From contig JAFXXN010000123.1 of NCBI GenBank assembly GCA_017542245.1, positions 1 to 64,000 of the forward strand: a DNA stretch of 64,000 nucleotides. Direction: 5' to 3'. Under the pieces are notes generated by a model. The model was given only the letters and a program-made list of their open reading frames with translations. It made no database searches and was not told the DNA's origin. The translations under genes and the position numbers were made by a program. Shown in pieces: positions 10,470 to 30,594 of this stretch; position 1 is the first letter of the stretch, and every line of letters starts with the position of its first letter. Source of the stretch: Lachnospiraceae bacterium (GTDB lineage Bacteria > Bacillota > Clostridia > Lachnospirales > Lachnospiraceae).

Positions 10470-10503
10470 AAAATACCACCTCCAAAATTATATTTTTAAA
10501 GTC

Positions 10504-10530
10504 AAAAAAGGCATCTTTATGCCTTCTTTG
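10504..10530 (-). terminator. Rho-independent terminator of the polysaccharide operon
   Basis: On the minus strand AAGGCAT, a 4-nt loop and ATGCCTT are followed by TTTTTT, just after the stop codon of the BCCT transporter at 10539. It separates the long operon from the surface-protein gene. Confidence 0.85.
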
Positions 10531-10538
10531 ATTTTAAA

Positions 10539-12101
10539 TCACTTTATTTTTTTCATTCCATTTTCTTCTTCATCCATATACTTCTTGGAATCCTTAATAA
10601 AACTTGCAACAATCAGGATCATAACGATACCGATAGGAAATGCTGCAATTATGGAAACAGTCTGAAGATTAGCCATCGTGCCCTCAGAAAAGATTAAAGC
10701 TATAGGAAGCATAATAAGGAGAATAGCCCAAAAAAGTTTCATCTTCTTGCTTGCAGTTTCGTCATTCTCCATATCCTTATAACTATAGTTTGAAGCCACC
10801 ATCGTAATACTATCAAACGATGTTGCATAAAAAGCAAACATCGCAAGGGCTAGTACCACAAGGAATATTGCCGGCAAAGGAAGCTGATTAATTATGTCAA
10901 TAATCGTTTGATATAAATCATCACCATTTGTATGATACTGAGCAACGGCATCAAATTTTCCATGAACTTTCATTCCAAGGCCGAAATTTCCAAGAACAAT
11001 AAATGAAATCAAGGTGCTGGCCGTTCCAAATACGTATGACCCCATAATAACTTGTTTTACGGTTCTGCCACGGCTAATCATTCCCATAAAGAACGGAGCT
11101 GCAACACACCATACCATCCAGTATGCCCAATAAAATATAGTCCAGTTCTGCGCAAATCCCGCCTCTGATCTGGTTGCATCCGTCCATGTTGAAAGGCTGA
11201 TAAAGTTCTGTACCATATTACCTATCGAAGTAAGACCAGTCTCAAATGAGAATCTTGTTTCTCCGCCAAACAAAAATACATATGATAGAATAAAACCAAA
11301 TAGTATCATGCAGATCTTAGAAAGCATATTGACACCTTTAAGACCATTTAATACTGAGCAAGTATAAATTCCGCAAACAATCAACAGAATTGCGATTGAG
11401 ACAAACTTCGTGCTTTCGATTCCAAATAAGCTTGTCAATACCATTGAAAGAAGAGGAGTTGCGATTGAGAAGGTAGTTGCAGTTCCTGCTATAAGAGCAA
11501 TAACTGCAAGAAGGTCTATTACCTTTCCCCAAGGTCCATCGGTATGCTTACCGAGTATCGGTCTGCATGCCTCAGAGTATTTCTGTTTGTGACATCCCCT
11601 AACATGGAGCATAAATCCGAAGCAAGCTGCAAGAACTGCATAAAAACTCCAAGGAATCAGACTCCAGTGATATAAAGGATATGTCGGTGCCCATTCATTT
11701 ATATCCCCAAGTCCCAATACACGAGTCTCTTCATAATAATATATCCATTCACAGAAGGAATAGAAAAGGATATCTGAAGCCAGACCACAGGTAAAAACCA
11801 TTGCTCCCCATGAGAAGAATCCATACTTAGGCTTCTCACCGGGTTTTCCGATTGTAATAGAGCCGATTTTGGAATATGAAAGCCATATGGAAACAAGAAA
11901 GAATCCCAGTCCGATAACAAGATAATAAGATCCCATCTTGTCTCCCAGAAAGCTCCTTATTACCTCAAGTGCATTGGTTGAATTTTCAGGTGCAATAATA
12001 AAATAAGCACACAAAATCAGAATACAGGCAAGCGGGATTATAGTAGTAAAGGGATCTATTCTCCTCTTTTTGTCACCTTGTTTTGCGGTTTTGCTTTTCA
12101 T
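10539..12101 (-). CDS. BCCT-family choline/betaine transporter
   Basis: A 520-residue membrane transporter of the betaine/carnitine/choline family with about 12 hydrophobic segments. Recognisable family segments are the tryptophan-rich FYWAYWMVWCVAAPFFMG helix, ISRGRT, and the late segment FYATSFDSIT. The ATG follows GGAGGA and overlaps the stop of licC in an ATGA arrangement. Because the next genes encode LicC and LicA domains, choline is the most likely substrate, supplying phosphocholine synthesis. It is the last gene of the operon and is followed by a terminator. Substrate assignment is inferred from context. Confidence 0.88.
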   Translation of the reverse strand: MKSKTAKQGDKKRRIDPFTTIIPLACILILCAYFIIAPENSTNALEVIRSFLGDKMGSYYLVIGLGFFLVSIWLSYSKIGSITIGKPGEKPKYGFFSWGAMVFTCGLASDILFYSFCEWIYYYEETRVLGLGDINEWAPTYPLYHWSLIPWSFYAVLAACFGFMLHVRGCHKQKYSEACRPILGKHTDGPWGKVIDLLAVIALIAGTATTFSIATPLLSMVLTSLFGIESTKFVSIAILLIVCGIYTCSVLNGLKGVNMLSKICMILFGFILSYVFLFGGETRFSFETGLTSIGNMVQNFISLSTWTDATRSEAGFAQNWTIFYWAYWMVWCVAAPFFMGMISRGRTVKQVIMGSYVFGTASTLISFIVLGNFGLGMKVHGKFDAVAQYHTNGDDLYQTIIDIINQLPLPAIFLVVLALAMFAFYATSFDSITMVASNYSYKDMENDETASKKMKLFWAILLIMLPIALIFSEGTMANLQTVSIIAAFPIGIVMILIVASFIKDSKKYMDEEENGMKKIK

Positions 12102-12847
12102 AATTGATGTCCTCCAGTGTGGTTTTTATATTTATATTTTTGATAAGTTTTATCAATCTTTATCAATTCATCAAGATTATCAATCTCAATTATGTCCGAC
12201 AATTTCATTTCTCTTATTCCCAAACGATAATCCTCAAAATGACAGAACATAGCTACATCATCCCAGTAAATCTGTTGATTGCCAGATTCAAATTCCTGTT
12301 CTAGATGCTTCCTAAGCTGTTCCCCATCCGACGCAGACCACCGAGATATCGAATATAGCTGCCATCCATGCTTTCCACCAGTCCTAGAGCAGGACTTGAC
12401 TATCCCATCTTCAACATTCATTAGCCATTCATCTGTCTCTCCTTCACACCATACTGCATTGTATCCAGATAACTCAAAATACGGATTAAGTATATCAGCA
12501 TTGTAAATAATTTGATCCCCATCCAAGATAATACAATCCCTAAGGTAATCGCGAGCCATATACAGTGATGAGATATTATTGCAAGAATCATAATAGGGGT
12601 TTTCAATAATCTTAATATCTTCCTGTCCTTCAGCCCATTCATAAAACTGATTCTTAAGATATCCCACAACCACATAAATTTCTTTAATGCTGTTCTTCCT
12701 CAAACCCTCTACAACAGTATCTATCATCCTAACTCCGTTAACCTTCACTAGAGGTTTTGGAATCTCGAAAGTAAGTGGTTGCATTCGTTTACCTATTCCC
12801 GCTGCCATAACGATAGCTCTTTTAACAGTGTAAAACTCGTCATTCAA
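12098..12847 (-). CDS. licC: LicC-like choline-phosphate cytidylyltransferase
   Basis: A 249-residue sugar-nucleotidyltransferase-type enzyme. It has the nucleotide-binding loop MAAGIGKRMQPLT, the KPLVKVNG lysine motif, and DGDQI for metal binding, as in pneumococcal LicC. The expected reaction is phosphocholine + CTP to CDP-choline. It is sandwiched between a choline transporter and a LicC-LicA fusion, so two LicC-type domains occur side by side. One of them may act on another substrate, for example phosphoethanolamine or aminoethylphosphonate. The ATGA overlap with the downstream transporter indicates coupling. Confidence 0.8.
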   Translation of the reverse strand: MNDEFYTVKRAIVMAAGIGKRMQPLTFEIPKPLVKVNGVRMIDTVVEGLRKNSIKEIYVVVGYLKNQFYEWAEGQEDIKIIENPYYDSCNNISSLYMARDYLRDCIILDGDQIIYNADILNPYFELSGYNAVWCEGETDEWLMNVEDGIVKSCSRTGGKHGWQLYSISRWSASDGEQLRKHLEQEFESGNQQIYWDDVAMFCHFEDYRLGIREMKLSDIIEIDNLDELIKIDKTYQKYKYKNHTGGHQL

Positions 12848-12862
12848 GTTCTATCCCCCCTT

Positions 12863-14503
12863 CTATGATTCTTCTTCACTCATCATTTCTTTTGCCAACT
12901 TATAAAAATCCTTTGCATAACGATACTGGCGAAGAGAATACTCGCCAAACTCCACTCCTAGTTTACGTTTGTACTCGCACCAATTCGACCACAAAAGGCC
13001 ACATATAGCTATATAGCAATATATTTTTGTTCGAATTTCCTTACCACAATCACCTCTAAAGTAAATATCTATCAGTCGGTCACATAGTTTCTTGTCATAT
13101 AAACTATAAATACAGAACATAGCTATATCTACATGAGGATCCTGCATACCTGAATATTCCCAATCAGTAAGCTGAAGAGCTTCACCCTCTTCCGTTTGAT
13201 AAAACAAGAAATTGTCTGGCACAGCATCTATATGAGTTAAACACCAATCCTTTTTCAATCCATCTAAATAGTTCTTTAACGAAAAAACATTACTCTTTGT
13301 AACTTTATAATCCCGAAACACAGAAGGATTCCCATCCCATAAGGATTCATAAAACTCTATCTGACCAAATATATCAAAAGTATGTGACACTTTTAAATTC
13401 ATAGAATGAAAAGCTTTTAGCTTCCTCATACATTTTTTAAGATCCCTTATATCCTCTGAATTACATGCTCGAATGCCTTCAAGGTATCTTGTAATCTTAT
13501 AACCATTTTCTGGATTGATATAGACCGGATCATCACATAACCCCATTCCACTTATTGTGCTAAAAACTTCAGCCTCGTGTTTTCGGTCAATCAACAGGTC
13601 AGTACCTTCGCCAGGAATACGCATAATATACTTCTCATCCCTTACTCTGAAAAGGAACGAGCGATTAGTCATACCTTTTTTCAATACACAGATATCAACA
13701 ATCTCATCTTCTTTACAATCTAAAGCATAAGCAATTGTAGCTATAGCATCTGATTTTAATTGATTCGAACCAGAATCAAGATCTCTCAGCTGTTCATACG
13801 TGTTTATTTCCACTATATCTGACATATGAACAACATTAGCACGAAGAATCATTCTATCCTTTTGATAAAGAGCTTTCTCCCAAAAACTGTCATTATGCCC
13901 TTCATTATCCATACTTTTTAGTCGATTTTTGACAAGAATTGATTCAGGCTCTCCTAAATAGGCTATCCCTATCATTCCATTTCCAGCTTTCTTTTCAGAA
14001 ACCCTTACCAATTCCATTTTCCTATTAACACGAACTTCTGATTCTTCATCTACCAAATCACTAACCATATACCAAGAATATAATTCTTTTTCATGAAACG
14101 GATTAGTACTGCACCAGATATCACAAGGAACTATATATGTGCTATTTATGCGATTGGCTACTAAGGCTAAAGAGTGAAGATTGTTTTTGTTAGCATATTC
14201 TTCATTAACAACCAAATGAACCCCATATTCATCAATAAGATATTCAAATTGATCTTTTAAGAATCCAACTACAACCGTTATGTCTTTAATTCCAACAGAA
14301 CGTAATTGCCTGATAAGTCGATCTATCAATCTCTCACCATTAACTTCTAGCAAAGCCTTGGGTACTGTCATATTTATTGGTACCATTCTCATACCAAAAC
14401 CTGCAGCAAGAATAATAGCGTTACTTGGAGTCCCTACTTTATCCTCTATATTTTTTTCAAAATCCAACACTTTCTTACCATCTAAATATTCTTCTACAGA
14501 CAT
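12863..14503 (-). CDS. Fusion of a LicC-type cytidylyltransferase and a LicA-type choline kinase
   Basis: A 546-residue two-domain protein. Residues about 28-235 repeat the LicC fold (ILAAGFGMRMVPIN, VPKALLEVNGE, PCDIW). Residues about 250-540 are a choline/ethanolamine kinase: the catalytic THIDAVPDNFLF (HxDxxxxN) and the DWEYSGMQDPHVDIA metal-binding motif are intact. One polypeptide could thus phosphorylate choline and make CDP-choline. The ATG at 14503 follows GGGAG; an upstream TTG at 14515 is possible but weaker. It starts 18 bp after the preceding gene. The fusion order is cytidylyltransferase then kinase. Confidence 0.85.
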   Translation of the reverse strand: MSVEEYLDGKKVLDFEKNIEDKVGTPSNAIILAAGFGMRMVPINMTVPKALLEVNGERLIDRLIRQLRSVGIKDITVVVGFLKDQFEYLIDEYGVHLVVNEEYANKNNLHSLALVANRINSTYIVPCDIWCSTNPFHEKELYSWYMVSDLVDEESEVRVNRKMELVRVSEKKAGNGMIGIAYLGEPESILVKNRLKSMDNEGHNDSFWEKALYQKDRMILRANVVHMSDIVEINTYEQLRDLDSGSNQLKSDAIATIAYALDCKEDEIVDICVLKKGMTNRSFLFRVRDEKYIMRIPGEGTDLLIDRKHEAEVFSTISGMGLCDDPVYINPENGYKITRYLEGIRACNSEDIRDLKKCMRKLKAFHSMNLKVSHTFDIFGQIEFYESLWDGNPSVFRDYKVTKSNVFSLKNYLDGLKKDWCLTHIDAVPDNFLFYQTEEGEALQLTDWEYSGMQDPHVDIAMFCIYSLYDKKLCDRLIDIYFRGDCGKEIRTKIYCYIAICGLLWSNWCEYKRKLGVEFGEYSLRQYRYAKDFYKLAKEMMSEEES

Positions 14504-14520
14504 AATTTCTCCCAACCGAT

Positions 14521-15849
14521 TTATATTTCCACAAAGTTTTCTTTCTTATAAAAGGAATCCATAACACGACATATAGCACCAGATACATCACTGCTTATAT
14601 ACGCACTTTCAATCCCGGTATTTATCGTCTTAACAAAATCAACTAACTCGTATCTTATACCTTCACCTTCAAGAGGATAAAAATATCTACGATTATCACT
14701 TGAATTTTCATATCTAATTTCAAAATAATCTGTTTTCCACCAAGGTGCTGGTACATATATATATCCTTTTGTACCAGATATAATCATTTCTCCTTCTGAT
14801 TTAATTCCCCTTCCAACCTTAAGTGTAGCTGTCGCATGTGTATATAAAAAGTCTATTTTGGTAAACTGATCAAAATCATCATTGCTCAATCTACTCACAA
14901 TATTAATATTCAAATATTCTGTACCCAAAATCTGTACTATAGGAAGCAAAGCCGTCGGCCCCCACAAACAAATACTATTCCAAGCATATTTCTTATCATC
15001 AACTTCCTGAATACTGGTACAAGTTGTATCAATAGATATTATGTCCCCTATCCTTCCTGACTTTACCAAAAGTAGCAATCTATAATATGCGGTTGAATAA
15101 GCAGTCTTTATAGAATTCATAAGAACTACATTCTTAATTTTGGCCAATTCATTCAATTCCTTGAACTGCTCTTCTTTTAATGCAATCGGAGACTCACATA
15201 AGATATGTACTCCTTGAGCAATTGCTTCTTTAATCTGTTCATAGTGTTCTGAAGGATGAGATAAAACATATATTGCATCACATCGTTTTAAAAAATCTGA
15301 AAAATCTTGTGTAATATAAATATCTGACGACCCAAGAATATTTTTAATATCTTTGTTTCTAGCATAAACACCACTAATCTCAATACCATTAACATACTTG
15401 CATTCATTATAATATTTTACAAGAATTCTAGATTCATAATCTCCAACGAAACCCATCCTTATTTTTCTCTGCTCTGCCCTAACCTCTGAACTTGAAACCC
15501 CCTCAGTTCTAGGAAGATAAATCACCTTACAATACTCATTTAAATAATCAAATTTTCCCTCCCAATCTGAGCCTACTGTAAAGATGTCAACATTGAAACG
15601 CCTAATATCATCTATTTTCTGACCATCATATTCCTCAACAATTATTTCATCAGCAAGTCCCGTCCGTTGTAATGCCTCTATACGCTCCATTAATGGTTGT
15701 TGAACATTTATCTTTCCACGCGTCATATCGAAATCATCAGATGTAACACCCACAATAAGATAATCTCCTAATGCTTTAGCACGCTCCAATAACTTAATGT
15801 GACCGAAATGAAGAAGATCATAAGTTCCATATGTAATTACTCTGGTCAT
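14521..15849 (-). CDS. Fusion of a TagD-type cytidylyltransferase and a Gfo/Idh/MocA oxidoreductase
   Basis: A 442-residue fusion. Residues 1-125 resemble glycerol-3-phosphate cytidylyltransferase (VITYGTYDLLHFGH with the HxGH motif, and the late EGVSSSEVR segment). From about 130 a Rossmann domain begins (RMGFVGDYES) and continues as a Gfo/Idh/MocA oxidoreductase, with CESPIAL typical of the E-K/P region. The ATG at 15849 follows GAGG and gives the usual TagD N-terminus; another ATG at 15861 overlaps the upstream stop. It probably makes and oxidises a CDP-linked small polyol. The next gene is an aminotransferase, which suggests the oxidised product is aminated. Substrates are unknown. Confidence 0.8.
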   Translation of the reverse strand: MTRVITYGTYDLLHFGHIKLLERAKALGDYLIVGVTSDDFDMTRGKINVQQPLMERIEALQRTGLADEIIVEEYDGQKIDDIRRFNVDIFTVGSDWEGKFDYLNEYCKVIYLPRTEGVSSSEVRAEQRKIRMGFVGDYESRILVKYYNECKYVNGIEISGVYARNKDIKNILGSSDIYITQDFSDFLKRCDAIYVLSHPSEHYEQIKEAIAQGVHILCESPIALKEEQFKELNELAKIKNVVLMNSIKTAYSTAYYRLLLLVKSGRIGDIISIDTTCTSIQEVDDKKYAWNSICLWGPTALLPIVQILGTEYLNINIVSRLSNDDFDQFTKIDFLYTHATATLKVGRGIKSEGEMIISGTKGYIYVPAPWWKTDYFEIRYENSSDNRRYFYPLEGEGIRYELVDFVKTINTGIESAYISSDVSGAICRVMDSFYKKENFVEI

Positions 15850-15857
15850 TTTTAACC

Positions 15858-16934
15858 TCATATCAAATTTCTTTTTTGCATATCATAAAAAGCGGCAATT
15901 AAAGTATCAAAATCCTCTTCTTTCAGTGCTCCAATATGGCCAACTCGAAAAACTTTGTCTTTTAAATCTCCACCATTTGGGCATACCCATATATCATATT
16001 CATCCTTTAACACAGAAAAAATATCATAAGCCGACCTGCCATTAGTAACAGTCAATGGAGTTACTGCATTCGGAAGAGAATGAGATATTATCTCAAATGG
16101 TAATTCAGATAATTTGCTACGGAAATATCTTGCAAGAGATCCTATTCTTTCAACTTCAAAATCTACTCCACCCGATGCTTCTATATCCTTTAATCTTTTA
16201 TTAATTTGAATAAGAATACTAACAGCACAAGTAAATGGAGTTTGACCACGTTCCTGATTACTAATTGCTAATTTTAAGTCCATATAAAGCGTTTTAGGAT
16301 TATTATGTTCTACTTTATTTATTGCTTTTGGAGACATTACTATAATAGATACTCCAGGAGGACAAGCCAAAGCCTTTTGAGATCCCGTAATCATAACATC
16401 GACATCCAATTTTTCCATATCAAAAGGATCACAAAGGAATGAACTAATTGAATCAACTACCAAAAACAAATTATTTCTCTTACAAAACTCACTTATCAGT
16501 TTTATATTATATAGTACTCCAATAGAAGTTTCATCAATATTTACAAGAAATCCTGTATAATCTTTACCATCATATGGTGTCAAATCGCATTCTGATACAC
16601 TATGTCCAAATTTAGGGCGAATAACCGTAAACGAAACATTATGTATCTCCAGAAGCTCTACAAATCGATGTCCAAAAGTTCCTCCATCAATCACAAGAAC
16701 GTTATCAGAAGAATCAAAAAGATTCATTACTACTGCTTCCATAGAAAGCGTTCCAGATCCAGTCATGAAAACAACCTTTGAATTATTAGGAGCTTTTGAA
16801 AACTTAAGAATATATTTCTCATTTTCTTTCATAATTTCAGAAAACTCATTAGTTCTAAAATATGGTACTTGAATTGCCCCTAAAGCAAGCACAGATTCAT
16901 CACACATAACGGGACCAACTGTAAAATTTAGCAT
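15858..16934 (-). CDS. Class V PLP-dependent aminotransferase (AGT/PhnW-like)
   Basis: A 358-residue PLP enzyme of the alanine-glyoxylate / 2-aminoethylphosphonate transaminase group: TVGPV near the start, MTGSGTLSMEAV for phosphate binding, VVDSISSF with the PLP aspartate, and ITGSQKALACPPG with the Schiff-base lysine. PhnW would make aminoethylphosphonate, but no PEP mutase or phosphonopyruvate decarboxylase is in the window. Its stop overlaps the upstream end of the TagD-oxidoreductase gene, suggesting that it aminates the product of that fusion. The actual substrate is not known. Confidence 0.82.
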   Translation of the reverse strand: MLNFTVGPVMCDESVLALGAIQVPYFRTNEFSEIMKENEKYILKFSKAPNNSKVVFMTGSGTLSMEAVVMNLFDSSDNVLVIDGGTFGHRFVELLEIHNVSFTVIRPKFGHSVSECDLTPYDGKDYTGFLVNIDETSIGVLYNIKLISEFCKRNNLFLVVDSISSFLCDPFDMEKLDVDVMITGSQKALACPPGVSIIVMSPKAINKVEHNNPKTLYMDLKLAISNQERGQTPFTCAVSILIQINKRLKDIEASGGVDFEVERIGSLARYFRSKLSELPFEIISHSLPNAVTPLTVTNGRSAYDIFSVLKDEYDIWVCPNGGDLKDKVFRVGHIGALKEEDFDTLIAAFYDMQKRNLI

Positions 16935-19692: not shown

Positions 19693-20166
19693 TTAAATAT
19701 TTTCTTTGTTTTTAACAATCCACTCGATAAAACTTCTTACTGCACCTTCTCCACCTTTATATGGCGAAACGAAATCTGCAATATCTCTAACTTCATCAAC
19801 AGCGTCTGCTGGACATCCGATTATTCCTCCAGATTCTTTTATACATTGCATACATTTTAAATCATTTAAATCATCTCCAATATATGCAATCATACTCAAA
19901 TCCTTTATAATCTTATATAATAATTGCAACTTGTCAAATATATTTTGATATATTTCTGTAACATTAAGTTCTTTACATCTCTCAGTCACAATATCACTTT
20001 TTCTACCAGTAATAATTATCGGAATCAATTCGTATTTATTTAAAATATTACGAATTCCATAACCATCTTTAATATTAAACGCTTTCACCATTTCACCGTT
20101 TGAGGACATATATATTTTACCATCAGTTAACGTTCCATCTACATCCATACATAAATACTTAATCAT
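19693..20166 (-). CDS. KdsC-like HAD phosphatase
   Basis: A 157-residue capless HAD phosphatase of the KdsC / N-acylneuraminate-9-phosphatase type. Motif I is DVDGTLTDG (nucleophile and acid Asp), motif II lies in IIITGR, and motif IV is AYIGDDLNDL. It dephosphorylates an ulosonate-8- or 9-phosphate-type sugar acid. Neighbours are a metal-dependent aldolase (20179-21765) and a NeuA-like cytidylyltransferase (22555-23199), which together form a plausible keto-deoxy-acid pathway. Confidence 0.85.
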   Translation of the reverse strand: MIKYLCMDVDGTLTDGKIYMSSNGEMVKAFNIKDGYGIRNILNKYELIPIIITGRKSDIVTERCKELNVTEIYQNIFDKLQLLYKIIKDLSMIAYIGDDLNDLKCMQCIKESGGIIGCPADAVDEVRDIADFVSPYKGGEGAVRSFIEWIVKNKENI

Positions 20167-20178
20167 ATATAAATTCTC

Positions 20179-21765
20179 CTATTGGTAAAGTGACGGAGTA
20201 ACAAATACAAACTCAATCCCCATATCAGTGTATTTTTTAATCAGATTTTTATAATACTTGTTTCTTCTTTCTGCTTGTTCATAGTTTACTGGATTCCTTA
20301 AATTGGGATCATAATAATTTTCATTTATATTTATCGAAAATCCATCGAATCCAGCAAGTAAAATCTTTTTTACTCCGCATCTCCACAATAATTTTAAAGC
20401 TATAACTGCAGAAGAATCATGAGTTCTGTCATCAATTTCTATCCAATTAGCATAATTTAGTACCTTCACCGATCCTCTTCCACCTTTAGAAACGTTTGAG
20501 GGAACTATTATACTTTTTCCATCAGCAACTGCCTGGACATAAATATCTAAACGTGTTGTAAGCATATAATCATATTTTAAATTCAATGTACTGTTCAATC
20601 CAATAGTAACGATATTTTCTTTATCTGATAATTCATTAATCTTTTCAATATAATCTCCAACACTTTTTCCAGGTGCAACGAGAAGTACCATTTTTTGAGA
20701 AAACTCATTCTCTAGTTCATTAATTACTGCAGTATCATCAACTGATTTTCTCTCATTATATTGTCTATATAATTCTTCAGCATATTCTTTGTCAAATGAA
20801 ATCTTCTTTTCATCCTCAATCATGCTAAGCAGTTCACCAACTTGATCAATTGGAAGCATATGTTTATTGTAGAAATGACTTGCATAAGATGGTGTACAAT
20901 GATATGCAGATGAAAGATAATACTCAGGAGCATATCCCCAGTAAAACTCGTTATGAAGTTGATTCACAACCTTATCGATAACTTCTAGTAATGGGGATAT
21001 TATATATTTTTTCCCGTAGAAAAGGTTTAAATGTTCAAGTAGAATTTCCGTATTAAGATTTCCAGCTCCTTTTCCCATACCCATAATAGAACAATCGAGT
21101 ATTATATCTCTAGTGGTCGGAAATTGTAGCATTGCCATTGCATTAGAATAGGACAACTGTAAGTTGTTATGGCTATGAAACCCAAGTGGCATAGATGAAA
21201 TTAAATTGTGATCTACTAGATTAAGCATCCTACTCATATCGTTAGGACGCATCTCACCAAAACTATCAACAATATAAAACCCTGATGCATTTGGTAATTC
21301 TCTATTAACTAAATCTATAAATTCTAACAGTTCAGAATCTGAATATCTTAGAGTTATCATTGGTTGAATATAGAATTTGTATCCTTTTTCAATTAACTTC
21401 TGCCCAATAGATATAATATCATTTCTGTTTTTCTTATGAAAAGCACATCGTATTCCGTCAATACTATTTTCAGTTCTATCATCAAAATCATTGACATTAT
21501 ATTTACCGTAATCCATCATAGCCACATATGTAACATTAGGATTTTTTTTCTTAAGTATACTCTGCGGGATTACTTTTTCATTGATATATTGAGTACGTCC
21601 TGAAGCAGACCCATTTTTACTGTCAATATATCCCATCTCAATTATGTCAACACCAGATTTTTCTAAACTCATAAGAATTTTTTCCATATATGACTGTCCA
21701 AAATTAAAATTATTAACACAACCACCATCTCTTAGTGTAACATCTAAAACTTTTAAGCTTTTCAT
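20179..21765 (-). CDS. DRE-TIM (HMGL-type) aldolase fused to an MptE/DUF115-like C-terminal domain
   Basis: 528 residues. Residues 1-290 are a DRE-TIM metallolyase related to 4-hydroxy-2-oxovalerate aldolase: DVTLRDGG with the metal Asp and catalytic Arg, and GFHSHNNLQLS with the HxH metal ligands. Residues about 355-528 form a second Rossmann-like domain (LLVAPGKSV, ILLAGFDGF) resembling DUF115/MptE proteins. The N-terminal half should make or break a C-C bond between pyruvate and an aldehyde. No NeuB or KdsA homologue occurs in the window, so this enzyme may supply the carbon skeleton for the CMP-activated acid implied by the flanking KdsC- and NeuA-like genes. The role of the fused domain is unknown. 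Confidence 0.8.
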   Translation of the reverse strand: MKSLKVLDVTLRDGGCVNNFNFGQSYMEKILMSLEKSGVDIIEMGYIDSKNGSASGRTQYINEKVIPQSILKKKNPNVTYVAMMDYGKYNVNDFDDRTENSIDGIRCAFHKKNRNDIISIGQKLIEKGYKFYIQPMITLRYSDSELLEFIDLVNRELPNASGFYIVDSFGEMRPNDMSRMLNLVDHNLISSMPLGFHSHNNLQLSYSNAMAMLQFPTTRDIILDCSIMGMGKGAGNLNTEILLEHLNLFYGKKYIISPLLEVIDKVVNQLHNEFYWGYAPEYYLSSAYHCTPSYASHFYNKHMLPIDQVGELLSMIEDEKKISFDKEYAEELYRQYNERKSVDDTAVINELENEFSQKMVLLVAPGKSVGDYIEKINELSDKENIVTIGLNSTLNLKYDYMLTTRLDIYVQAVADGKSIIVPSNVSKGGRGSVKVLNYANWIEIDDRTHDSSAVIALKLLWRCGVKKILLAGFDGFSININENYYDPNLRNPVNYEQAERRNKYYKNLIKKYTDMGIEFVFVTPSLYQ

Positions 21766-21848
21766 CTTGTAACTCTCTATTCTTAAAAAATATTTATCTA
21801 ATGCATTATTATCTAGATATCAGTTATTTCTATCTATGAAAAATATAT

Positions 21849-22478
21849 TTACTTATCGTAAAAATGTTTAATAATTCTTTCAATCTCATCAATATCCTTT
21901 TCCCACCAACTTGTATCGAGTATTTTCTTTTCTGTAACACTATCAAATCTTTTTTTAATCATTTTGGCAGGTACCCCCCCCCAAATAGTAAATGGTTCAA
22001 CATTTTTCGTAACAACAGCTCCTGCTGCTATTATTGCCCCATCTCCTATTTTACATCCTTGTAAAATTATCACGTTACTTCCTACCCATACATCATTTCC
22101 TATTACCGGAGGTTCAAAAAAATCTTTCCAGTTCGAATACTTCTTAGCCTTACTATCTGCATATATACGAGGAGATGTAGAGAAGAAATTTACAGGGTGT
22201 TCTGGACAACCAATCTGACAATTATATCCTATACTACTAAAACGTCCGATTTTTACATCATTAAACAGAATACTACCAGCTGATATTTTTGAATAATCTC
22301 CAATTTTTACGTTAGATCTAATATCACAATCACGTCCAATATATATTTTTTTACCAAGTTCACAATCTAGCGATACCATATCACTTTTAATATAACAATT
22401 TTTATATATTTTTTTATAACTTATCCTTTTTAAAACACTATATAAACCTGGAAAAACCAATTTAATATGCGATACCAT
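21849..22478 (-). CDS. Left-handed beta-helix acyltransferase with a G9 tract
   Basis: A 209-residue CatB/LacA-type hexapeptide transferase. Hexapeptide repeats (IGRDCDIRSNVKIGDYSKI, VWVGSNVIILQGCKIGDGAIIAAGAVV) end in the family hallmark WGGVPAKMI. It probably O- or N-acetylates a sugar of the surface polymer. The WGG codons are encoded by nine consecutive G (plus-strand C at 21974-21982). Slippage there would shift the frame after about residue 165, so the gene could be phase-variable. The tract is in frame here. Confidence 0.85.
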   Translation of the reverse strand: MVSHIKLVFPGLYSVLKRISYKKIYKNCYIKSDMVSLDCELGKKIYIGRDCDIRSNVKIGDYSKISAGSILFNDVKIGRFSSIGYNCQIGCPEHPVNFFSTSPRIYADSKAKKYSNWKDFFEPPVIGNDVWVGSNVIILQGCKIGDGAIIAAGAVVTKNVEPFTIWGGVPAKMIKKRFDSVTEKKILDTSWWEKDIDEIERIIKHFYDK

Positions 22479-22554
22479 TTGTCACCTCAATAATATAATG
22501 CAAACAAATACTCTAAAACACAAAAAATCATCCAAAATAATTTAATTATTATAC

Positions 22555-23199
22555 TTAAACATTAATATTCACAAATAATCTTGCTAAATCAAAATCCTTT
22601 TCTTCATCTATATCAATAGCTTCCTTAAAATCAACTTCTTTAATGTATGGTTTTTCTCCAATTCGTCTATGATATCTTTCAAAAACAGATTTAGTAAACA
22701 CATAAATACCTGATGTCTCTTGAAATATAGGCTTTAAATCTTGTGTTCTTGGAATATTGGAAGCATCGAAATTTAGCGGTTCACCATCTTGCCATAAATA
22801 ATCTTGCAATTTTATAGCGCAAAATGCCGAATCATACTTTCCAGATTTAACTGCTTCAATGCACGTTTTCATAGTTTCTAATTTAATAAACGGAGCTGTA
22901 GCATGTGCATATATATATATATCAGATGGGATTTTTTCCATAAAAACTGTAAAAATTTGTGTAAAATTCGAGCTGGGTTCATCAAGGAAACTAGGCCTTT
23001 TCACGAAATCAACCCCATCCGGGAGAAAAGGAATTATATCATCTTTCGAACAAAATACATTAATGCTATCGCATAAGTTAGTTTCTTTTAGACTATCAAG
23101 TTCCCATTGCAAAAGAGGCTTGTTACCAAGAATTCTAGTGTTTTTCCCAGGACATCTTTCATTATTCATTTTAATTGGCATAATCGCTACTATATTCAT
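22555..23199 (-). CDS. NeuA-like acylneuraminate/keto-deoxy-acid cytidylyltransferase
   Basis: A 214-residue CTP-dependent enzyme that activates a sugar acid as the CMP form. It has AIMPIKMNNERCPGKN (nucleotide-binding), NKPLLQWELDSL, YAHATAPFI and ETSGIYVF, as in NeuA and PseF/LegF relatives. The ATG at 23199 has GGAGG 5 nt upstream; the four codons before it are probably untranslated. No NeuB or NeuC is present, so the substrate may not be sialic acid. Confidence 0.85.
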   Translation of the reverse strand: MNIVAIMPIKMNNERCPGKNTRILGNKPLLQWELDSLKETNLCDSINVFCSKDDIIPFLPDGVDFVKRPSFLDEPSSNFTQIFTVFMEKIPSDIYIYAHATAPFIKLETMKTCIEAVKSGKYDSAFCAIKLQDYLWQDGEPLNFDASNIPRTQDLKPIFQETSGIYVFTKSVFERYHRRIGEKPYIKEVDFKEAIDIDEEKDFDLARLFVNINV

Positions 23200-23392
23200 A
23201 ATTACCTCCATATAATCACACTTTTGAAATAAAAAATCTTATTTATATTTCAAATTTATTTTTTTCATCCTTTATTATAGAAAATAGTGATAAAACTATA
23301 TGTATCCATACACCCATATACGTTTTACTTGAAGCACTAACCAGCAGTGAAAAAACAATCGTAAAAAAGAGAGACATCAGAATAGGCTTAAT

Positions 23393-24457
23393 CTATTTGC
23401 AGTTATTTTTTATATCCAAACACTTAAACAACTTATAATAAGCTGTTCCAAATAACATCAAGCCAACATAACCAAATTGTGCCATAATCATAGCAATATA
23501 ATTATCATTGAGAATCCCACCATACCCCGTATGAGACAACCCATATCTATCATTAAAACCATATTCCCAGTATAGAGGAGAATAATATCTGGCAGCCATT
23601 TCTCCACCATAAGACCCAAATCCCGCTCCTAGTGGAAAAAATCTATTGGCTGTCTTAATACCATAAACTAACAATACTGCTCGCGGAGCCTCTGTATTCA
23701 TTAAATATTTTTCTATTTCATAAAAAGCTATAATTATAGATAAAATTCCTACTGCTATTAAGGTTTTAATTTTAAGTTGTTTTTTCTTTTCATAATATAT
23801 TTTAAAGAAAAACAAAAACGCTATACTACACCAAACAATAATCGCTGTTGTAAAGAAACATGTTACACAATACATAAAAATATAGATGTTTTTTTCTTTC
23901 TTTTTTCGTAAAGTATAAAACAGTATTATCATACATCCTGTGAGAAGAAAATACGTTTGAATCGCATTCCCATATATGAATCCAAAACTGTTTATACCAT
24001 ACTCTCTTTTAACAGTCATCCCTATGTCTACAAATTGGCTTATCACCGAACATAAAAAAGCAAAAAACATCAAAACTTTAGCAATCGGATTTAGATAATT
24101 ACAAGCTGCCATAACATCTGATTGCTTAAATAAATTTCTAAATGCAATAATAACAGCTAAACATTTTGTAAATTCTACCCAATCAAAAACAATAACCCAT
24201 ATGCTTGTAATTATTCCATAAACATAATTGGATAGAAAACCTATTAAAGATAACAATACAATAATAATAAATACGATTTTCTCAGAATGTGCTAACTTTT
24301 TTGTAAAAAAACGAATTGTAATATATACAAATGAAAATATACCGATAATTTCATCAAAATAATCAATAAGTGGTATATTAAAAATACGTAACAACGGCAT
24401 ACTTAGAATTAAAGCAACTATTACCAATCCTTTAAATGTTACTTTTTTTGCATACAT
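23393..24457 (-). CDS. Wzy-like O-antigen/polysaccharide polymerase, interrupted by an in-frame amber codon
   Basis: A multi-spanning membrane protein of 354 residues with about ten hydrophobic helices and a large loop (GAGFGSYGGEMAARYYSPLYWEYGF) typical of Wzy ligases/polymerases. The TAG at 23393-23395 is not the natural end: the same frame continues for 49 codons of hydrophobic sequence to a TAA at 23243-23245, giving a 404-residue protein of usual Wzy length. The stop removes what appears to be the last transmembrane helix. The gene may be inactive, or TAG may be read through. It would polymerise the units flipped by 16963-18414. Confidence 0.8.
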   Translation of the reverse strand: MYAKKVTFKGLVIVALILSMPLLRIFNIPLIDYFDEIIGIFSFVYITIRFFTKKLAHSEKIVFIIIVLLSLIGFLSNYVYGIITSIWVIVFDWVEFTKCLAVIIAFRNLFKQSDVMAACNYLNPIAKVLMFFAFLCSVISQFVDIGMTVKREYGINSFGFIYGNAIQTYFLLTGCMIILFYTLRKKKEKNIYIFMYCVTCFFTTAIIVWCSIAFLFFFKIYYEKKKQLKIKTLIAVGILSIIIAFYEIEKYLMNTEAPRAVLLVYGIKTANRFFPLGAGFGSYGGEMAARYYSPLYWEYGFNDRYGLSHTGYGGILNDNYIAMIMAQFGYVGLMLFGTAYYKLFKCLDIKNNCK

Positions 24458-24468
24458 TATTAGTCCTC

Positions 24469-25350
24469 TTATTTAACAATTGAATCAAAGTCTTTTCTTT
24501 CAAACACCTCAAGTTTTCCACCCCTAGTAGCATTATATATCTTTACACCACGTAATTCAGCCTCTTTCTTTGCTGAACTATATATCATTTCATTCATAAC
24601 AGGATCAGTTACTCCAAACTTTTTATTATCTCCTTGCCCGAATTGGTTATATACATCCTTATATCTATCATCAAAGTAAGTTTTATTTACACCTAAGTTT
24701 CTTACTATTCTTCTATTTTTATCCATTTGATATTCGAAATTATTATCTACCCCAAGAAGATATATTTCACTAAACCCCATATACATCGCAAACTGTATGC
24801 TTGAATAAGTGACTGTTGTGCCATCAATAATATATTTATCACAACAAGTTGAAAACGGCATTGATTTTCCATATTTTATCAGGGGCCTTTTGTCGCACAA
24901 ATAGCAAATTGCATTTTCCACTTCTAAGCTAAATTCCGTTATGCTATTATAACTTAAAAATACAGGAAAATCATAATCGCATATTCTGCTGTACTCCCCT
25001 CGTATCATCTGTCTATCCTGGCAAAAATAAAAACTAGGTCTCCACAATGTTTTGTCAAACATAAGCCATATTCTATTTGCAGCAAATGTAAATTCGTCCT
25101 TAAGCTTCTCTAAATCGTTTGAATTCAGGCTTGGGCCATTTCCAATTACAAAACAACGTTTCCCTTTATATTTATCTTTTAACGATAATATTTTCATTCG
25201 GTTTTCTGTCTTATTATATTTGTTTCTATATTTTTTATATCTGAACGTCTCTTTAATTAACCAATATCTTCTTCTGATAAAAGATAATATATTTGAATTT
25301 GTTATAACGCTTTTAGCTATTTTTTTTAATTTATTAAAAGCTTTTTTCAC
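24469..25350 (-). CDS. DUF115/MptE-like protein, possible glycosyltransferase
   Basis: A 293-residue protein with a Rossmann-type core starting at RCFVIGNGPSLNSNDLEKL, followed by FTFAANRIW and the late YLLGVDNNF. The GNGPSL segment is shared by DUF115 (6-hydroxymethylpterin diphosphokinase-like) proteins and GT42 sialyltransferases, which use CMP-sugars. In a polysaccharide operon next to a NeuA-like enzyme, a CMP-sugar transferase is a reasonable guess but unproven. It starts one base inside the end of the next upstream gene. Confidence 0.6.
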   Translation of the reverse strand: MKKAFNKLKKIAKSVITNSNILSFIRRRYWLIKETFRYKKYRNKYNKTENRMKILSLKDKYKGKRCFVIGNGPSLNSNDLEKLKDEFTFAANRIWLMFDKTLWRPSFYFCQDRQMIRGEYSRICDYDFPVFLSYNSITEFSLEVENAICYLCDKRPLIKYGKSMPFSTCCDKYIIDGTTVTYSSIQFAMYMGFSEIYLLGVDNNFEYQMDKNRRIVRNLGVNKTYFDDRYKDVYNQFGQGDNKKFGVTDPVMNEMIYSSAKKEAELRGVKIYNATRGGKLEVFERKDFDSIVK

Positions 25351-27379: not shown

Positions 27380-28498
27380 TCATCCTCTTAATATTCTTAT
27401 TACTTCATTTTCTACATTTTCATCTAAATCAGGTCTTACTCTACCTGTTTCAAATTTTATTTTAGGTGTTAAAAAACTCTCCTTCGGAAGTAAAATATCA
27501 ATCAGACAAGCCTTATCATCCAAAATCCAATTCTTATAAGAATCAAGTTCATCATAAGAATTCAAAGAAGTCGCTCTAATTCCGTATGCTTCTGATATTT
27601 TCTTAAAATCAGGAACTGAATAACCACCTGATAGTGCAGTATTCGCAAATCTACCATTCATATCAAAATATTGGGTTTCACTTATTTTACCTAGAACATG
27701 ATTGTTAAGTACAAATATTTTTATAGGCATTTTTTCCCTCTTAACCGTTTCAAGTTCTTGAATATTCATTTGAAAACCACCATCACCAGTAATACAGAAG
27801 GACTTTTTGTACCCCGTAGAAACACATGCGCCAATAGCAAAGGGAAGTCCACATCCCATAGTTCCATACCCACCACTGATATGTATTCTTCCTTTATGAC
27901 CTTTTAAAACTAAAGACTGGGCACACCAACATTGATTCATACCAACATCCACTGAAACAATCGGATTTTCAGGAAGTAATGTTGCTATTTTTTCTATCGC
28001 TAAATTTCCTGGCTGTTTATCATATATATCCAGTATTTTTTTAGCTTTTAAGCATTTTTCTCTCCATCCCGAATAATCTCCGATTTCTTCATCCAAAAGC
28101 ATACGCATAAAATCTCGGGCATCTGTATGAAATTTTTTTTCGTCTTCCTTAATATTTCGACTTAGCTCATACTCGTCTATGTCACATCTAACAAGTTTCG
28201 CCTTCGGCGCAAAATTCTTTGTGTACCGACCAACTTGTCTTATTCCTAATCTAGCTCCAATACTGATTACAAGGTCGCATTCATTAATTATCATATTAGC
28301 AATACGATTTCCATGAGTCCCAATGAATCCAATATGAAAATCATCTTGAGCTAAGTCTACACCATTCATAGTAGTAAGGATAGGAATATTTGTTCTGTTA
28401 GCAAATTCATGAACTAAATCTACCGCTCCAGCGGTTCGAACTCCATTACCCAATAATAATATTGGCTTGTTGTATGTTGAGCGGAAAATCAATGACAA
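27380..28498 (-). pseudogene. TPP-dependent carboligase (acetolactate-synthase-like), C-terminal fragment
   Basis: This frame encodes the middle and C-terminal domains of a thiamine-diphosphate enzyme: PILLLGNGVR begins the central domain, and GDGGFQMNIQELETVKR...NNH is the TPP/Mg2+-binding motif. The only start is a TTG with no clear ribosome binding site. The N-terminal domain is in the other frame upstream. The join near 28465 lacks the usual linker of several tens of residues between the domains, so a deletion that also shifted the frame is likely. Two separate subunits cannot be excluded. Confidence 0.75.
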
Positions 28499-28979
28499 CT
28501 CCTCCTTTTCTTCCTAATAAAGCCATATTATAGGCTCTGCTGACAATATCTTTAAATCCTTCTGAACTATTCGCTGTTACAGAATATTTTGTAATGTTTC
28601 TCGTCATTGAAACTATGTCCATCTCCTGAAATCCATTTTGTCGTATTCCGGAAAAGCCTTTCATTTCATTGGTCGGTACATTTCCACATATGCCCATAAC
28701 GGGGATACCATCAAACCATGCATCTGCTAACCCACCAAGTCCATTGATAGCTCCAGGACCCGAGGTAGTAAAGTAAACCCCCAATTTTCCACTTGTTCTT
28801 GCAAATCCATTTGCTGCTAATGCACAACCTTGCTCATGATAACATACATGTGTTCGTATTTCGTCCCCTCTTACATAAAGTGCATCCATAAAAGGCACTA
28901 TATATCCCCCAGCATATCCAAAAATATCTGTAACTCCATGTTTTATTAAAAAATCTACTAGATACTCTGAACAATTCAT
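28446..28979 (-). pseudogene. TPP-dependent carboligase, N-terminal fragment
   Basis: 177 residues matching the N-terminal PYR domain of acetolactate-synthase-like enzymes: FGYAGGYIVPFMDAL, YHEQGCALAANGFAR with the catalytic glutamate, TSGPGAINGLGGLADAW and the domain end GGVVIDFPLNIQ, followed by an abrupt stop. The sequence then continues in the other frame as the rest of the enzyme. Relatives such as YerE add a two-carbon unit from pyruvate to a CDP-keto-sugar; the neighbouring cytidylyltransferase and epimerase would fit such a role, but the gene appears broken here. Confidence 0.75.
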
Positions 28980-28999: not shown

Positions 29000-29752
29000 T
29001 CAACTATACATTAAATCTTCTGATATATCAAGTAAGGCTTCAAATAACGCCAAATCTTCCCTTTTGGTTATTTTGATATTACAAGTTGTACCATCTGCAA
29101 AAAAAACGCGTTCCCCACAATGAATTAGTAACGAACTTGTAAAAGTTGTATTATGAATATTCTCCTCTTCAGCTTGTTTGTAACAATTTAATACAAGAGA
29201 ATACCTATATGCTTGTGGTGATGCAGTTAACATAACATGATCCCTGTCTATATCTGTTATCCCAGATTCAAAGTCATCTGTATATACTATAGGTGGATGA
29301 CAAGATATTGAAGAAGAGGCATTTCCTTTTTCTTGTGCTACACGAATTACTTCATTGATAGCTTTTTGTGGAAGTATCGGACGGACAGCATCATGAATTA
29401 TAACAATATCTTCTTTATTAATTTTATCGTTTAGGAAAAAAACTCCATTTCTTATAGAATCATGGCCTGTTTTTCCGCCTTCTATAATCCATTTAACTTT
29501 TGTCAATGAATATTTAACTGTTATTTCTTTCATTTTATCTATCCACTCATTCACACATACAACTACTATTTCCTTTATCTGTGGATTATTCTGAAAAGCC
29601 TCTAAAGTATAGGCTACTATCGGTTTTTTCCTAACTTCTATAAACTGCTTAGGGATATCAGCACCCATTCTAGTGCCAACTCCTCCTGCTAGTAAAATCA
29701 CATAATTATCCATATCAACATTTTTATGATGATCAAAAACTCTATTGATCAC
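29000..29752 (-). CDS. IspD/TarI-like cytidylyltransferase
   Basis: A 250-residue enzyme of the IspD family: VILLAGGVGTRMGADIPKQF for CTP binding, the HDAVRP segment, and TASPQAYR. Those in surface-polymer operons make CDP-ribitol or a similar CDP-polyol rather than the isoprenoid intermediate. It begins with a GTG that overlaps the licD stop (29749-29751). An internal ATG at 29713 gives a more standard N-terminus but lacks a good ribosome binding site. LicD upstream could transfer the resulting phospho-unit. Confidence 0.83.
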   Translation of the reverse strand: MINRVFDHHKNVDMDNYVILLAGGVGTRMGADIPKQFIEVRKKPIVAYTLEAFQNNPQIKEIVVVCVNEWIDKMKEITVKYSLTKVKWIIEGGKTGHDSIRNGVFFLNDKINKEDIVIIHDAVRPILPQKAINEVIRVAQEKGNASSSISCHPPIVYTDDFESGITDIDRDHVMLTASPQAYRYSLVLNCYKQAEEENIHNTTFTSSLLIHCGERVFFADGTTCNIKITKREDLALFEALLDISEDLMYS

Positions 29753-30594
29753 TCACTATCTCTACTTTTTAATATTCTTACCCTATGAGCTACTTGTAAT
29801 TCTTTAGGAGGCATTTTCATAAAATCTCCATATATCATTTTTAATATGCCTCTCCCATTATGCGGTGTCTTAACATATCCATCTTCAAATTTCTCATTCC
29901 TTGGTTCTCCCCAAAATATGGTAGGTACCAATTCTCTTTCTCTATACCGTCCCAGAAGATTTCCAGACAACCTACATTTTAACATATCATATTTTCTTAA
30001 TGTGTTCTCCATATGATTCAGTACTTTGTCAGTGTTAATAATCTTATTCATAGGTAATTTTTTTGATAACGCAATTAATAATCTTTCGATAGCTCCTCTC
30101 TGCCTTATGGCATCAGATTGTGTTTTAATATGTGCTGCTTGTATTAAGTATCTATGCAGAAGTATATACCAAATATAAAGCTTTCTTCTCCATTTTCCAT
30201 TGGGAACACCATCTATTGGATAAATATCGAGCCATACGCTAGATTTTCTCGGTATTTCAGCAAGATTTATTTCTATTTCAGATTTCAAGTCCATGAATTG
30301 TAAAAAAGCAAAATGCCAACTCTTGTCTGTCCATCTATCACAAACTCCATATCCTTCCGATAAATAATTCTTTGCAATTCTCTGAAATCTGTCAAAATCC
30401 TTTCTAGGCATAACAATATCTATATCATCATCCCATGGAATAAAACCTTTATGACGTTTAACGCCTATTAATGCTCCCCCGGTAAAATAATGTACTAACC
30501 CATTTTCTTCACATATTTCTGCAAATTTCCTGTATAAATTCAATGCAATCGCTTGGACTTTCTTTACTTGCTCAATATTATCTATTTCTGCCAT
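29749..30594 (-). CDS. licD: LicD-family phosphotransferase
   Basis: A 281-residue LicD/fukutin-type transferase. The hallmark GGALIGVKRHKGFIPWDDDIDIVMPR lies near residue 40, with the DDDID metal site intact. These proteins move a phospho-unit, classically phosphocholine, from a CDP donor onto a glycan. The choline donor could come from the LicA/LicC genes of the same operon, or another unit from the adjacent IspD-like gene. It overlaps both neighbours by a few bases. Confidence 0.88.
   Translation of the reverse strand: MAEIDNIEQVKKVQAIALNLYRKFAEICEENGLVHYFTGGALIGVKRHKGFIPWDDDIDIVMPRKDFDRFQRIAKNYLSEGYGVCDRWTDKSWHFAFLQFMDLKSEIEINLAEIPRKSSVWLDIYPIDGVPNGKWRRKLYIWYILLHRYLIQAAHIKTQSDAIRQRGAIERLLIALSKKLPMNKIINTDKVLNHMENTLRKYDMLKCRLSGNLLGRYRERELVPTIFWGEPRNEKFEDGYVKTPHNGRGILKMIYGDFMKMPPKELQVAHRVRILKSRDSE

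Follow-up and report, generated by a model that had tools for sequence, protein, structure and literature searches.

Composition of the locus

We analyzed a 64,000-nucleotide stretch of DNA from a Lachnospiraceae bacterium (GenBank assembly GCA_017542245.1, contig JAFXXN010000123.1, positions 1 to 64,000; hereafter the window), focusing on a minus-strand run of genes whose products could together make and use a sugar acid activated with cytidine monophosphate (CMP). As far as we are aware, sialic acids, 3-deoxy-D-manno-oct-2-ulosonic acid (Kdo), and their relatives are made by NeuB and KdsA, synthases that condense phosphoenolpyruvate (PEP), and the neuB and kdsA genes are a usual sign that a genome makes such acids. 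Read in the order of transcription, from 25350 to 19693, the run encodes a protein that we refer to by its GNGPSL motif, a Wzy-like protein, a NeuA-like synthetase, a hexapeptide acyltransferase, a DRE-TIM aldolase, and a KdsC-like phosphatase. A split enzyme of the thiamine diphosphate (ThDP)-dependent type, labeled with our hidden Markov models (HMMs), is listed with them because it matters below.

19693-20166, minus strand: KdsC/YrbI-family HAD phosphatase (TIGR01670, 145.7 bits, cut-off 106.95; DVDGTLTDG motif intact)
20179-21765, minus strand: DRE-TIM aldolase with a C-terminal MptE/GT42-like domain, 528 amino acids (PF00682, 61.1 bits)
21849-22478, minus strand: hexapeptide-repeat acyltransferase, between aldolase and synthetase (PF00132, 77.9 bits)
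22555-23211, minus strand: NeuA-like CMP-ulosonate synthetase (PF02348, 49.5 bits, cut-off 22.6)
23393-24457, minus strand: Wzy-like polymerase open reading frame (ORF), 354 amino acids (the name is our own reading)
24469-25350, minus strand: GNGPSL (MptE-like) protein (PF01973, 55.1 bits, cut-off 34.6)
27380-28979, minus strand: ThDP (acetolactate-synthase-like) enzyme, split (ORFs 27380-28498 and 28446-28979, both HMM-labeled TPP)

The ORFs of the run were intact at these coordinates. An initial annotation had picked out four of the genes (KdsC-like, DRE-TIM aldolase, NeuA-like, and GNGPSL) as occurring together, and this held up, their family models scoring above the Pfam or TIGR cut-offs. 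The best structure matches of the phosphatase were KdsC-type phosphatases; it fell under the cut-off of the KdsC equivalog NF007019 (134.7 versus 208 bits), and we predict that it removes the phosphate from a 2-keto-3-deoxy acid phosphate. The synthetase fell under the cut-offs of the PseF and KdsB models. The Wzy-like ORF is ∼60 residues shorter than a relative in another aldolase locus, L033 (354 versus 416 amino acids). Among 61 loci compared by cluster labels, a hexapeptide acyltransferase directly adjoined the aldolase in the window only.

Search for a PEP-dependent synthase in the same genome

No NeuB or KdsA had been seen near these genes, and we extended this statement to the whole assembly (97.06% complete, 8.58% contamination, 203 contigs). 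Among the matches listed, none to NeuB (PF03102) reached E ≤ 1e-5. At a looser limit, a single PF03102 match appeared (24.2 bits, E 4e-5, just above the Pfam cut-off of 22.1), and it coincided with a match to the KdsA model TIGR01362 that scored 78 bits, far under its cut-off of 314. The ORFs that follow are presumably, judging from their first residues, TyrA (prephenate dehydrogenase), AroB, AroA, and AroC. Because it precedes these aro-type ORFs, we took the weakly matching ORF to be a 3-deoxy-D-arabino-heptulosonate 7-phosphate (DAHP) synthase and rejected it as a NeuB or KdsA encoded elsewhere in the genome. A search for KdsD (TIGR00393) gave nothing at E ≤ 1e-5. Thus, this genome yielded no convincing candidate for NeuB, KdsA, or KdsD; the missing few percent of the assembly could hold a synthase. 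PF02348 gave one match at E ≤ 1e-5 among the matches listed, which by its score is the window synthetase.

The aldolase resembles pyruvate aldolases

The aldolase consists of a DRE-TIM part (residues ∼1-330), in which the HMGL-like domain PF00682 covers residues 4-243 (cut-off 29 bits), followed by a C-terminal domain (∼340-528). Its metal motifs had been called intact in the initial annotation, which an alignment of 45 sequences (A2) corroborated: R12, D13, H197, and H199, making up the RD and HxH metal motif, were invariant. We also assembled 153 loci, chosen for carrying the aldolase and including near-identical copies reached twice (147 distinct sequences). A strict HxHNN expression missed seven of these 153, five of which read HLHEN.

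Searched as a profile against the Protein Data Bank, the aldolase matched 3dxi (6e-49), an unassigned putative aldolase, and the DmpG-type structure 1nvm (8e-26); its closest named relatives were 4-hydroxy-2-oxovalerate aldolases. Models of these enzymes also gave the highest scores of any named family (89.4 bits), and the equivalog cut-off of TIGR03217 was missed (82.5 versus 286 bits). We predict from this homology that the enzyme makes a 2-keto-3-deoxy acid from pyruvate and an aldehyde. Alternatively, it might be a Claisen-type DRE-TIM condensing enzyme with an acyl-CoA donor, resembling isopropylmalate or homocitrate synthase, or a lyase, and a non-sugar acid would then be made or degraded. 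The aldolase does score on the isopropylmalate synthase model NF002085 (47.6 bits), and the position of DmpG His21, which we take to be the catalytic base, is not conserved: it is Cys16 in the window protein, and across the 153 loci it is Tyr in 122, Cys in 14, His in 1, and other or unread in 16. This loss tells against a pyruvate aldolase as well; the mechanism must differ in detail from that of DmpG, and we would expect another proton relay. We nevertheless consider a Claisen-type enzyme or lyase quite unlikely, given that models and structures of 4-hydroxy-2-oxovalerate aldolases came out best among the named families and that the gene sits in a setting of KdsC, NeuA/KdsB, and sialyltransferase-like genes. 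A pyruvate aldolase remains our preferred assignment.

Relatives of the aldolase are widespread. The genome holds two further full-length paralogues, on contigs 7 and 146. Within the same family, a match at E ≤ 1e-20 was obtained in at least 124 of the 299 genomes compared, and the stronger matches (E below 1e-38), which we compared for position, came from 70 of the 299. A scan of named genomes returned at least 565 relatives, and we went on with the best 80 loci. Among the matches listed, host titles included Clostridia, Bacilli, Bacteroidales, Gastranaerophilales, Spirochaetes, Fusobacterium, Campylobacterales, Akkermansia, and archaea; metagenome bins make up most of the named records, and an isolated unexpected host may therefore reflect mis-binning. 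A plasmid search yielded seven records with distant matches, named ‘aldolase catalytic domain-containing protein’ or ‘4-hydroxy-2-oxovalerate aldolase’.

Synthetases of the window subtype adjoin the aldolase or KdsA

If the aldolase takes the place of NeuB and KdsA, synthetases should be found beside it in other genomes, and we compared the positions of PF02348 synthetases, NeuB, KdsA, and the aldolase in the 299 same-family genomes. For NeuB, the first partner comparisons used a part of the positions found. The 26 best PF02348 matches (≥129 bits) were KdsB-like: in 21 cases the contig also carries the aldolase (at most 200 bp away in 15 and 2.9-16 kb away in the rest), three matches lie within 1.4 kb of KdsA, one is with NeuB, and one, near a contig end (genome G236), has no partner. 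All four synthetases tested passed a curated KdsB-subfamily cut-off (L038, L040, and L045 with NF009905; L049 with NF003952). At least 26 of the next 34 PF02348 matches had a listed NeuB on the same contig. Among the matches listed, KdsA scored above its cut-off in seven of the 299 genomes and PF03102 matched in 210, many of these matches being weak (about 1e-6 to 1e-11) and possibly DAHP synthases.

A profile of the window's own synthetase subtype (A4) gave 19 matches at ≥280 bits in the 299 genomes before scores dropped to 166 bits; 13 of the 19 were seeds of the profile, and all six nonseed matches adjoin the aldolase. For 17 of the 19, the distance to the aldolase is 12-793 bp; the other two have KdsA at 11 and 22 bp. 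The gap is 12-124 bp in 16 of the 17 aldolase pairs, the window's own being 793 bp. When the 19 stretches were rechecked directly with our own NeuB profile, none had a NeuB at E < 1e-3. Of the next five A4 matches (128-166 bits), one is near KdsA and four have no listed partner, and for at least 14 of the following 18 a listed NeuB is no more than 2.2 kb away. The window subtype also occurs inside KdsA-KdsD loci (L094, L176, and L177). The check for conserved co-occurrence without neuB thus came out in favor of the proposal: 17 of the 19 window-subtype synthetases adjoin the aldolase, the 19 stretches show no NeuB, and 21 of 26 KdsB-like synthetases have the aldolase on their contig.

An enzyme that occupies the place of two PEP-dependent synthases might itself use PEP rather than pyruvate and represent a convergent synthase. 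We regard this as very improbable, both from the homology to pyruvate aldolases and because we know of no DRE-TIM enzyme with PEP as its carbon donor. With pyruvate kept as the likely donor, the suggestion that the aldolase stands in for NeuB or KdsA as the acid-making step is supported by the exclusivity of its partners, the gene order, a gene fusion (below), and homology.

Aldolase loci fall into two types

We next sorted the 153 aldolase loci by labeled neighbors within 9 kb, the labels coming from HMMs built from window and locus proteins. Ninety-two carried a synthetase only (type A, or CMP type), 43 a ThDP enzyme only (type B), five, including the window, both, and 13 neither. The corresponding numbers were 35, 32, three, and six in the set from the same family (76 loci) and 57, 11, two, and seven in the set from named genomes (77 loci). 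A synthetase lay within 200 bp of the aldolase in 82 of the 92 type A loci. Candidate CMP-sugar transferases (MptE/GT42-like, or related to GT52 or polysialyltransferases) were found in 62 of 92 type A and 0 of 43 type B loci (Fisher p = 9e-16), with transferase HMMs that were themselves built from type A loci. RfbF or RfbH was labeled in 27 of 43 type B and 16 of 92 type A loci, KdsC in 23 of 92 type A and 0 of 43 type B loci, and HAD2 in 29 of 92 and 24 of 43, respectively. As a negative control, six loci of a shorter and more distant aldolase class (L186-L191) had no labeled partner.

On an aldolase tree (FastTree, with some long branches), the type A/B label required nine changes, at least six of them forced by well-supported branches, compared with a mean of 37 after shuffling; the synthetase subtype required 21. 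The tree indicates that the aldolase swaps NeuA-like and KdsB-like partners repeatedly.

The aldolase and a synthetase are fused in one locus from a Campylobacterales bin (L132), whose 768-residue protein comprises an aldolase (residues 1-270) and a KdsB domain (525-765; NF003952, 234.3 bits, cut-off 193). This fusion was noticed once among the 80 named loci without a systematic search for fusions. Behind it comes a weak match to HAD2 (42 bits); an incomplete NeuB ORF lies at the contig edge, and KdsA is present above its cut-off elsewhere in that genome. In L094, a synthetase-aldolase pair is followed 3.5 kb on by a synthetase-KdsA-KdsD-KdsC set, and in L184 the order is synthetase, short aldolase, KdsD. 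The KdsD neighbor in L184 hints at arabinose 5-phosphate as the aldehyde. KdsD lies within 6 kb of two of 140 aldolases, one of them beside KdsA (L184 is outside the 140). As KdsD is this rare near aldolases and was not found in the window's own genome, we did not adopt Kdo itself as the acid.

These loci bear on a further explanation, in which one polysaccharide contains two different sugars, with the aldolase working for one and the synthetase for the other. The acid would then come from an unrecognized synthase or from salvage, and the aldolase would make a keto acid for the ThDP enzyme, as in type B loci. The window does contain a ThDP enzyme, as do four other loci of the 153 with both partners, and 43 loci pair the aldolase with a ThDP enzyme alone. 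Against this stand the 92 loci with aldolase and synthetase and no labeled ThDP enzyme within 9 kb, the short gaps in 16 of 17 window-subtype pairs (the 793 bp of the window being the exception), the L132 fusion, and the replacement of the aldolase by KdsA in both window-subtype loci that lack it. We judge two separate sugars to be unlikely and hold to a single pathway shared by aldolase and synthetase.

Two observations in the same loci stand apart from these comparisons. On one Gastranaerophilales contig (L143:1-6367), KdsB-like, NeuA-like, and aldolase genes occur in a single run, two of each. A family of proteins of 632-916 amino acids (cluster c10; L041, L044, L045, L046, L053, L059, L076, L081, L086, and L087) lies beside the GT52- and polysialyltransferase-related genes, mostly in KdsB-type aldolase loci; a HAD model matched one member (L041) weakly.

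The GNGPSL protein is a candidate transferase

The proposal that the GNGPSL protein could be a CMP-sugar transferase gained ground from its family profile. Built from 20 relatives and searched against structures, the profile found seven Campylobacter-type GT42 sialyltransferases at 1e-8 to 1e-7 (CstII-type 2x62, 9.9e-9), two further sialyltransferases at 3e-6 (9c08, 3.1e-6) and 4e-5, and the ‘uncharacterized protein’ 5mu5 at 1e-4. The GNGPSL family and GT42 have in common a GxGPSL loop, an Asn, and a GxD motif. The stretch after GxD was poorly aligned, and no His was seen there in the window protein; the catalytic His of CstII is, we believe, His188. The family occurred in 30 of 92 CMP-type loci and in 0 of 43 ThDP-type loci. 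These profile matches indicate remote homology between the GNGPSL family and GT42 sialyltransferases, and we consider the window protein a candidate CMP-sugar transferase.

The C-terminal domain of the aldolase belongs to the same wider group. Its own sequence matched the MptE-like model below threshold (17.5 versus 34.6 bits), and a comparison of profiles gave an hhalign probability of 94 (E 1.4e-7). The domain is also present in the long aldolases of type B loci and is absent from short aldolases (type B loci L192, L195, and L196; synthetase locus L184), and for these reasons we did not adopt a CMP-sugar transferase role for it.

A proposed route to a CMP-activated sugar acid

We think it likely that the cluster serves both to form a CMP-activated 2-keto-3-deoxy sugar acid (ulosonic acid) and to use it, without NeuB or KdsA, by the following steps. 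The DRE-TIM aldolase would hold pyruvate on its metal as an enolate and add it to an aldehyde, of which an aldose phosphate is the most likely; the product would be a 2-keto-3-deoxy acid phosphate. Its phosphate would be taken off by the KdsC-family phosphatase, and the NeuA-like enzyme would use cytidine triphosphate to form the CMP-ulosonate. The GT42-like GNGPSL protein would then transfer the sugar into a surface polysaccharide, which the neighboring flippase- and polymerase-like genes would export and extend. This route is based on the gene content, the lack of a detectable NeuB, KdsA, or KdsD, the conserved pairing, one fusion, the intact metal motif, and the remote GT42 homology. From the sequences, we infer pyruvate as the donor, the aldehyde, the order of the steps, and the transferase activity.

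Besides the altered His21 position, several observations weigh against this route. No gene for supplying the aldehyde could be named, KdsD not having been found. Phosphatase neighbors are far from universal, with just 30 of 57 CMP-type loci in the named set and 21 of 35 in the family set having one, and in the family set they are about as common in type B loci (18 of 32). A search with the single GNGPSL sequence gave no GT42 match, and the family profile also found, more weakly than the CMP-sialyltransferases, a pterin pyrophosphokinase (8sd5, 3.8e-4). Of 12 genomes behind named aldolase loci, six have KdsA above its cut-off and six do not, from which it follows that one genome can have both Kdo synthesis and the aldolase route. 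Both partner types, synthetase and ThDP enzyme, are present in the window. Finally, 43 of 153 loci have a ThDP enzyme and no synthetase, and 13 have neither. We therefore rejected the idea that the aldolase is dedicated to CMP sugars only.

Type B loci and branched sugars

The ThDP enzyme of type B loci suggests a second use of the acid. ErwE joins a hydroxylated 2-oxo acid to CDP-4-keto-3,6-dideoxyglucose, giving erwiniose (CDP, cytidine diphosphate); in the passages available to us, pyruvate is not used, longer functionalized chains are preferred (4-hydroxy-2-oxobutanoate, -pentanoate, and -hexanoate), and MMAR_2332, which acts in caryophyllose synthesis, has a preference similar to that of ErwE (PMC12247030). 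Caryophyllose is described as a 3,6-dideoxyhexose with a 1,3,4,5-tetrahydroxyhexyl branch at C4 (PMC5706390). That branch is deoxygenated beside its attachment carbon, as would be expected from decarboxylative transfer of a 2-keto-3-deoxy acid. Pyruvate aldolases make hydroxylated keto acids, so the aldolase would be a natural source of them in type B loci, and we propose that YerE-like ThDP enzymes probably receive from it the 4-hydroxy-2-oxo acids that they would build into branched sugars. Two points count against this proposal. No aldolase is named as the source of the keto acid in the passages of PMC12247030 available to us, nor does the word ‘aldolase’ occur in the mycobacterial lipooligosaccharide papers searched, and 16 of 43 type B loci have no labeled RfbF or RfbH.

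In the window, the two ThDP ORFs overlap in different frames, and the first scores 235 bits with NF006524, whose cut-off is 738. The enzyme belongs to the family that forms the second kind of aldolase partner in other loci, and its tie to the CMP pathway is uncertain. Two RfbF-profile matches at the far end of the locus were read as LicC/LicA-like, and profile labeling gave no RfbH match in the window.

Taking both locus types together, we lean, if only slightly, toward the view that the DRE-TIM aldolase, often with a HAD phosphatase, forms an undescribed and widely transferred module for 2-keto-3-deoxy sugar acids in general. Such acids would have two fates: CMP activation by NeuA- or KdsB-type synthetases, or decarboxylative attachment by ThDP enzymes to CDP-4-keto sugars, giving branched higher-carbon sugars. 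The CMP fate would amount to a third, PEP-free ulosonic acid route, yielding Kdo-like sugars without KdsA in Gram-positive gut bacteria. Searches of an open-access library, which leaves out most subscription journals, listed no paper whose title or opening abstract lines describe an aldolase route. If the proposal is correct, the CMP-ulosonic acids of many gut Firmicutes, Bacteroidales, and others would be overlooked, the hydroxylated keto acids used by erwiniose- and caryophyllose-type enzymes would have a suggested source, and chemists would gain pyruvate aldolases that are adapted to sugar aldehydes as a family.

Surrounding regions of the window

By ORF reading, a phosphocholine set at 4863-14515 and 29749-30594 flanks the polysaccharide genes; it comprises an 1868-residue protein with choline-binding-like repeats, a BCCT-type transporter, and LicC/LicA-like and LicD-like proteins. 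Its position suggests a polymer decorated with phosphocholine. The stretch 14521-16934 encodes a fusion of a TagD-like cytidylyltransferase with a Gfo/Idh/MocA oxidoreductase and, beside it, a PhnW-like class V aminotransferase. Our guess is that this unusual pair might synthesize an amino-alcohol CDP donor. The region 33352-63766 reads as resembling an integrative conjugative element, with recombinase-like, VirB4-like, and VirD4-like proteins, a helicase/methylase-like protein of 2673 amino acids, and a group II intron-type reverse transcriptase (55108-57039).

Comparison with known systems

The system parallels the Kdo pathway (KdsD-KdsA-KdsC-KdsB), with which it shares a KdsC-family phosphatase and a CMP-ulosonate synthetase whose subtype is also found beside KdsA and KdsD. 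It differs in having a DRE-TIM aldolase in the place of KdsA, neither KdsA nor KdsD having been found in the genome, and, since the host family appears to be Gram-positive, we would expect no use in lipopolysaccharide. As in the NeuB-NeuA pathways for sialic, legionaminic, and pseudaminic acids, CMP activation falls to a PF02348 enzyme, and the candidates for the transfer step are GT42-, GT52-, or polysialyltransferase-related proteins; unlike those pathways, the system has no convincing NeuB in its own genome and none beside the 19 window-subtype synthetases. With the 4-hydroxy-2-oxovalerate aldolases (1nvm) and 3dxi, the aldolase shares the DRE-TIM fold family and the RD and HxH metal motif. 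It departs from them in the His21 position (mostly Tyr, and Cys in the window), the missed equivalog cut-off, the extra MptE/GT42-like domain, and the polysaccharide setting. The YerE-like ThDP enzymes ErwE and MMAR_2332 find their likeness in the type B loci, which carry a ThDP enzyme, together with RfbF or RfbH in 27 of 43.

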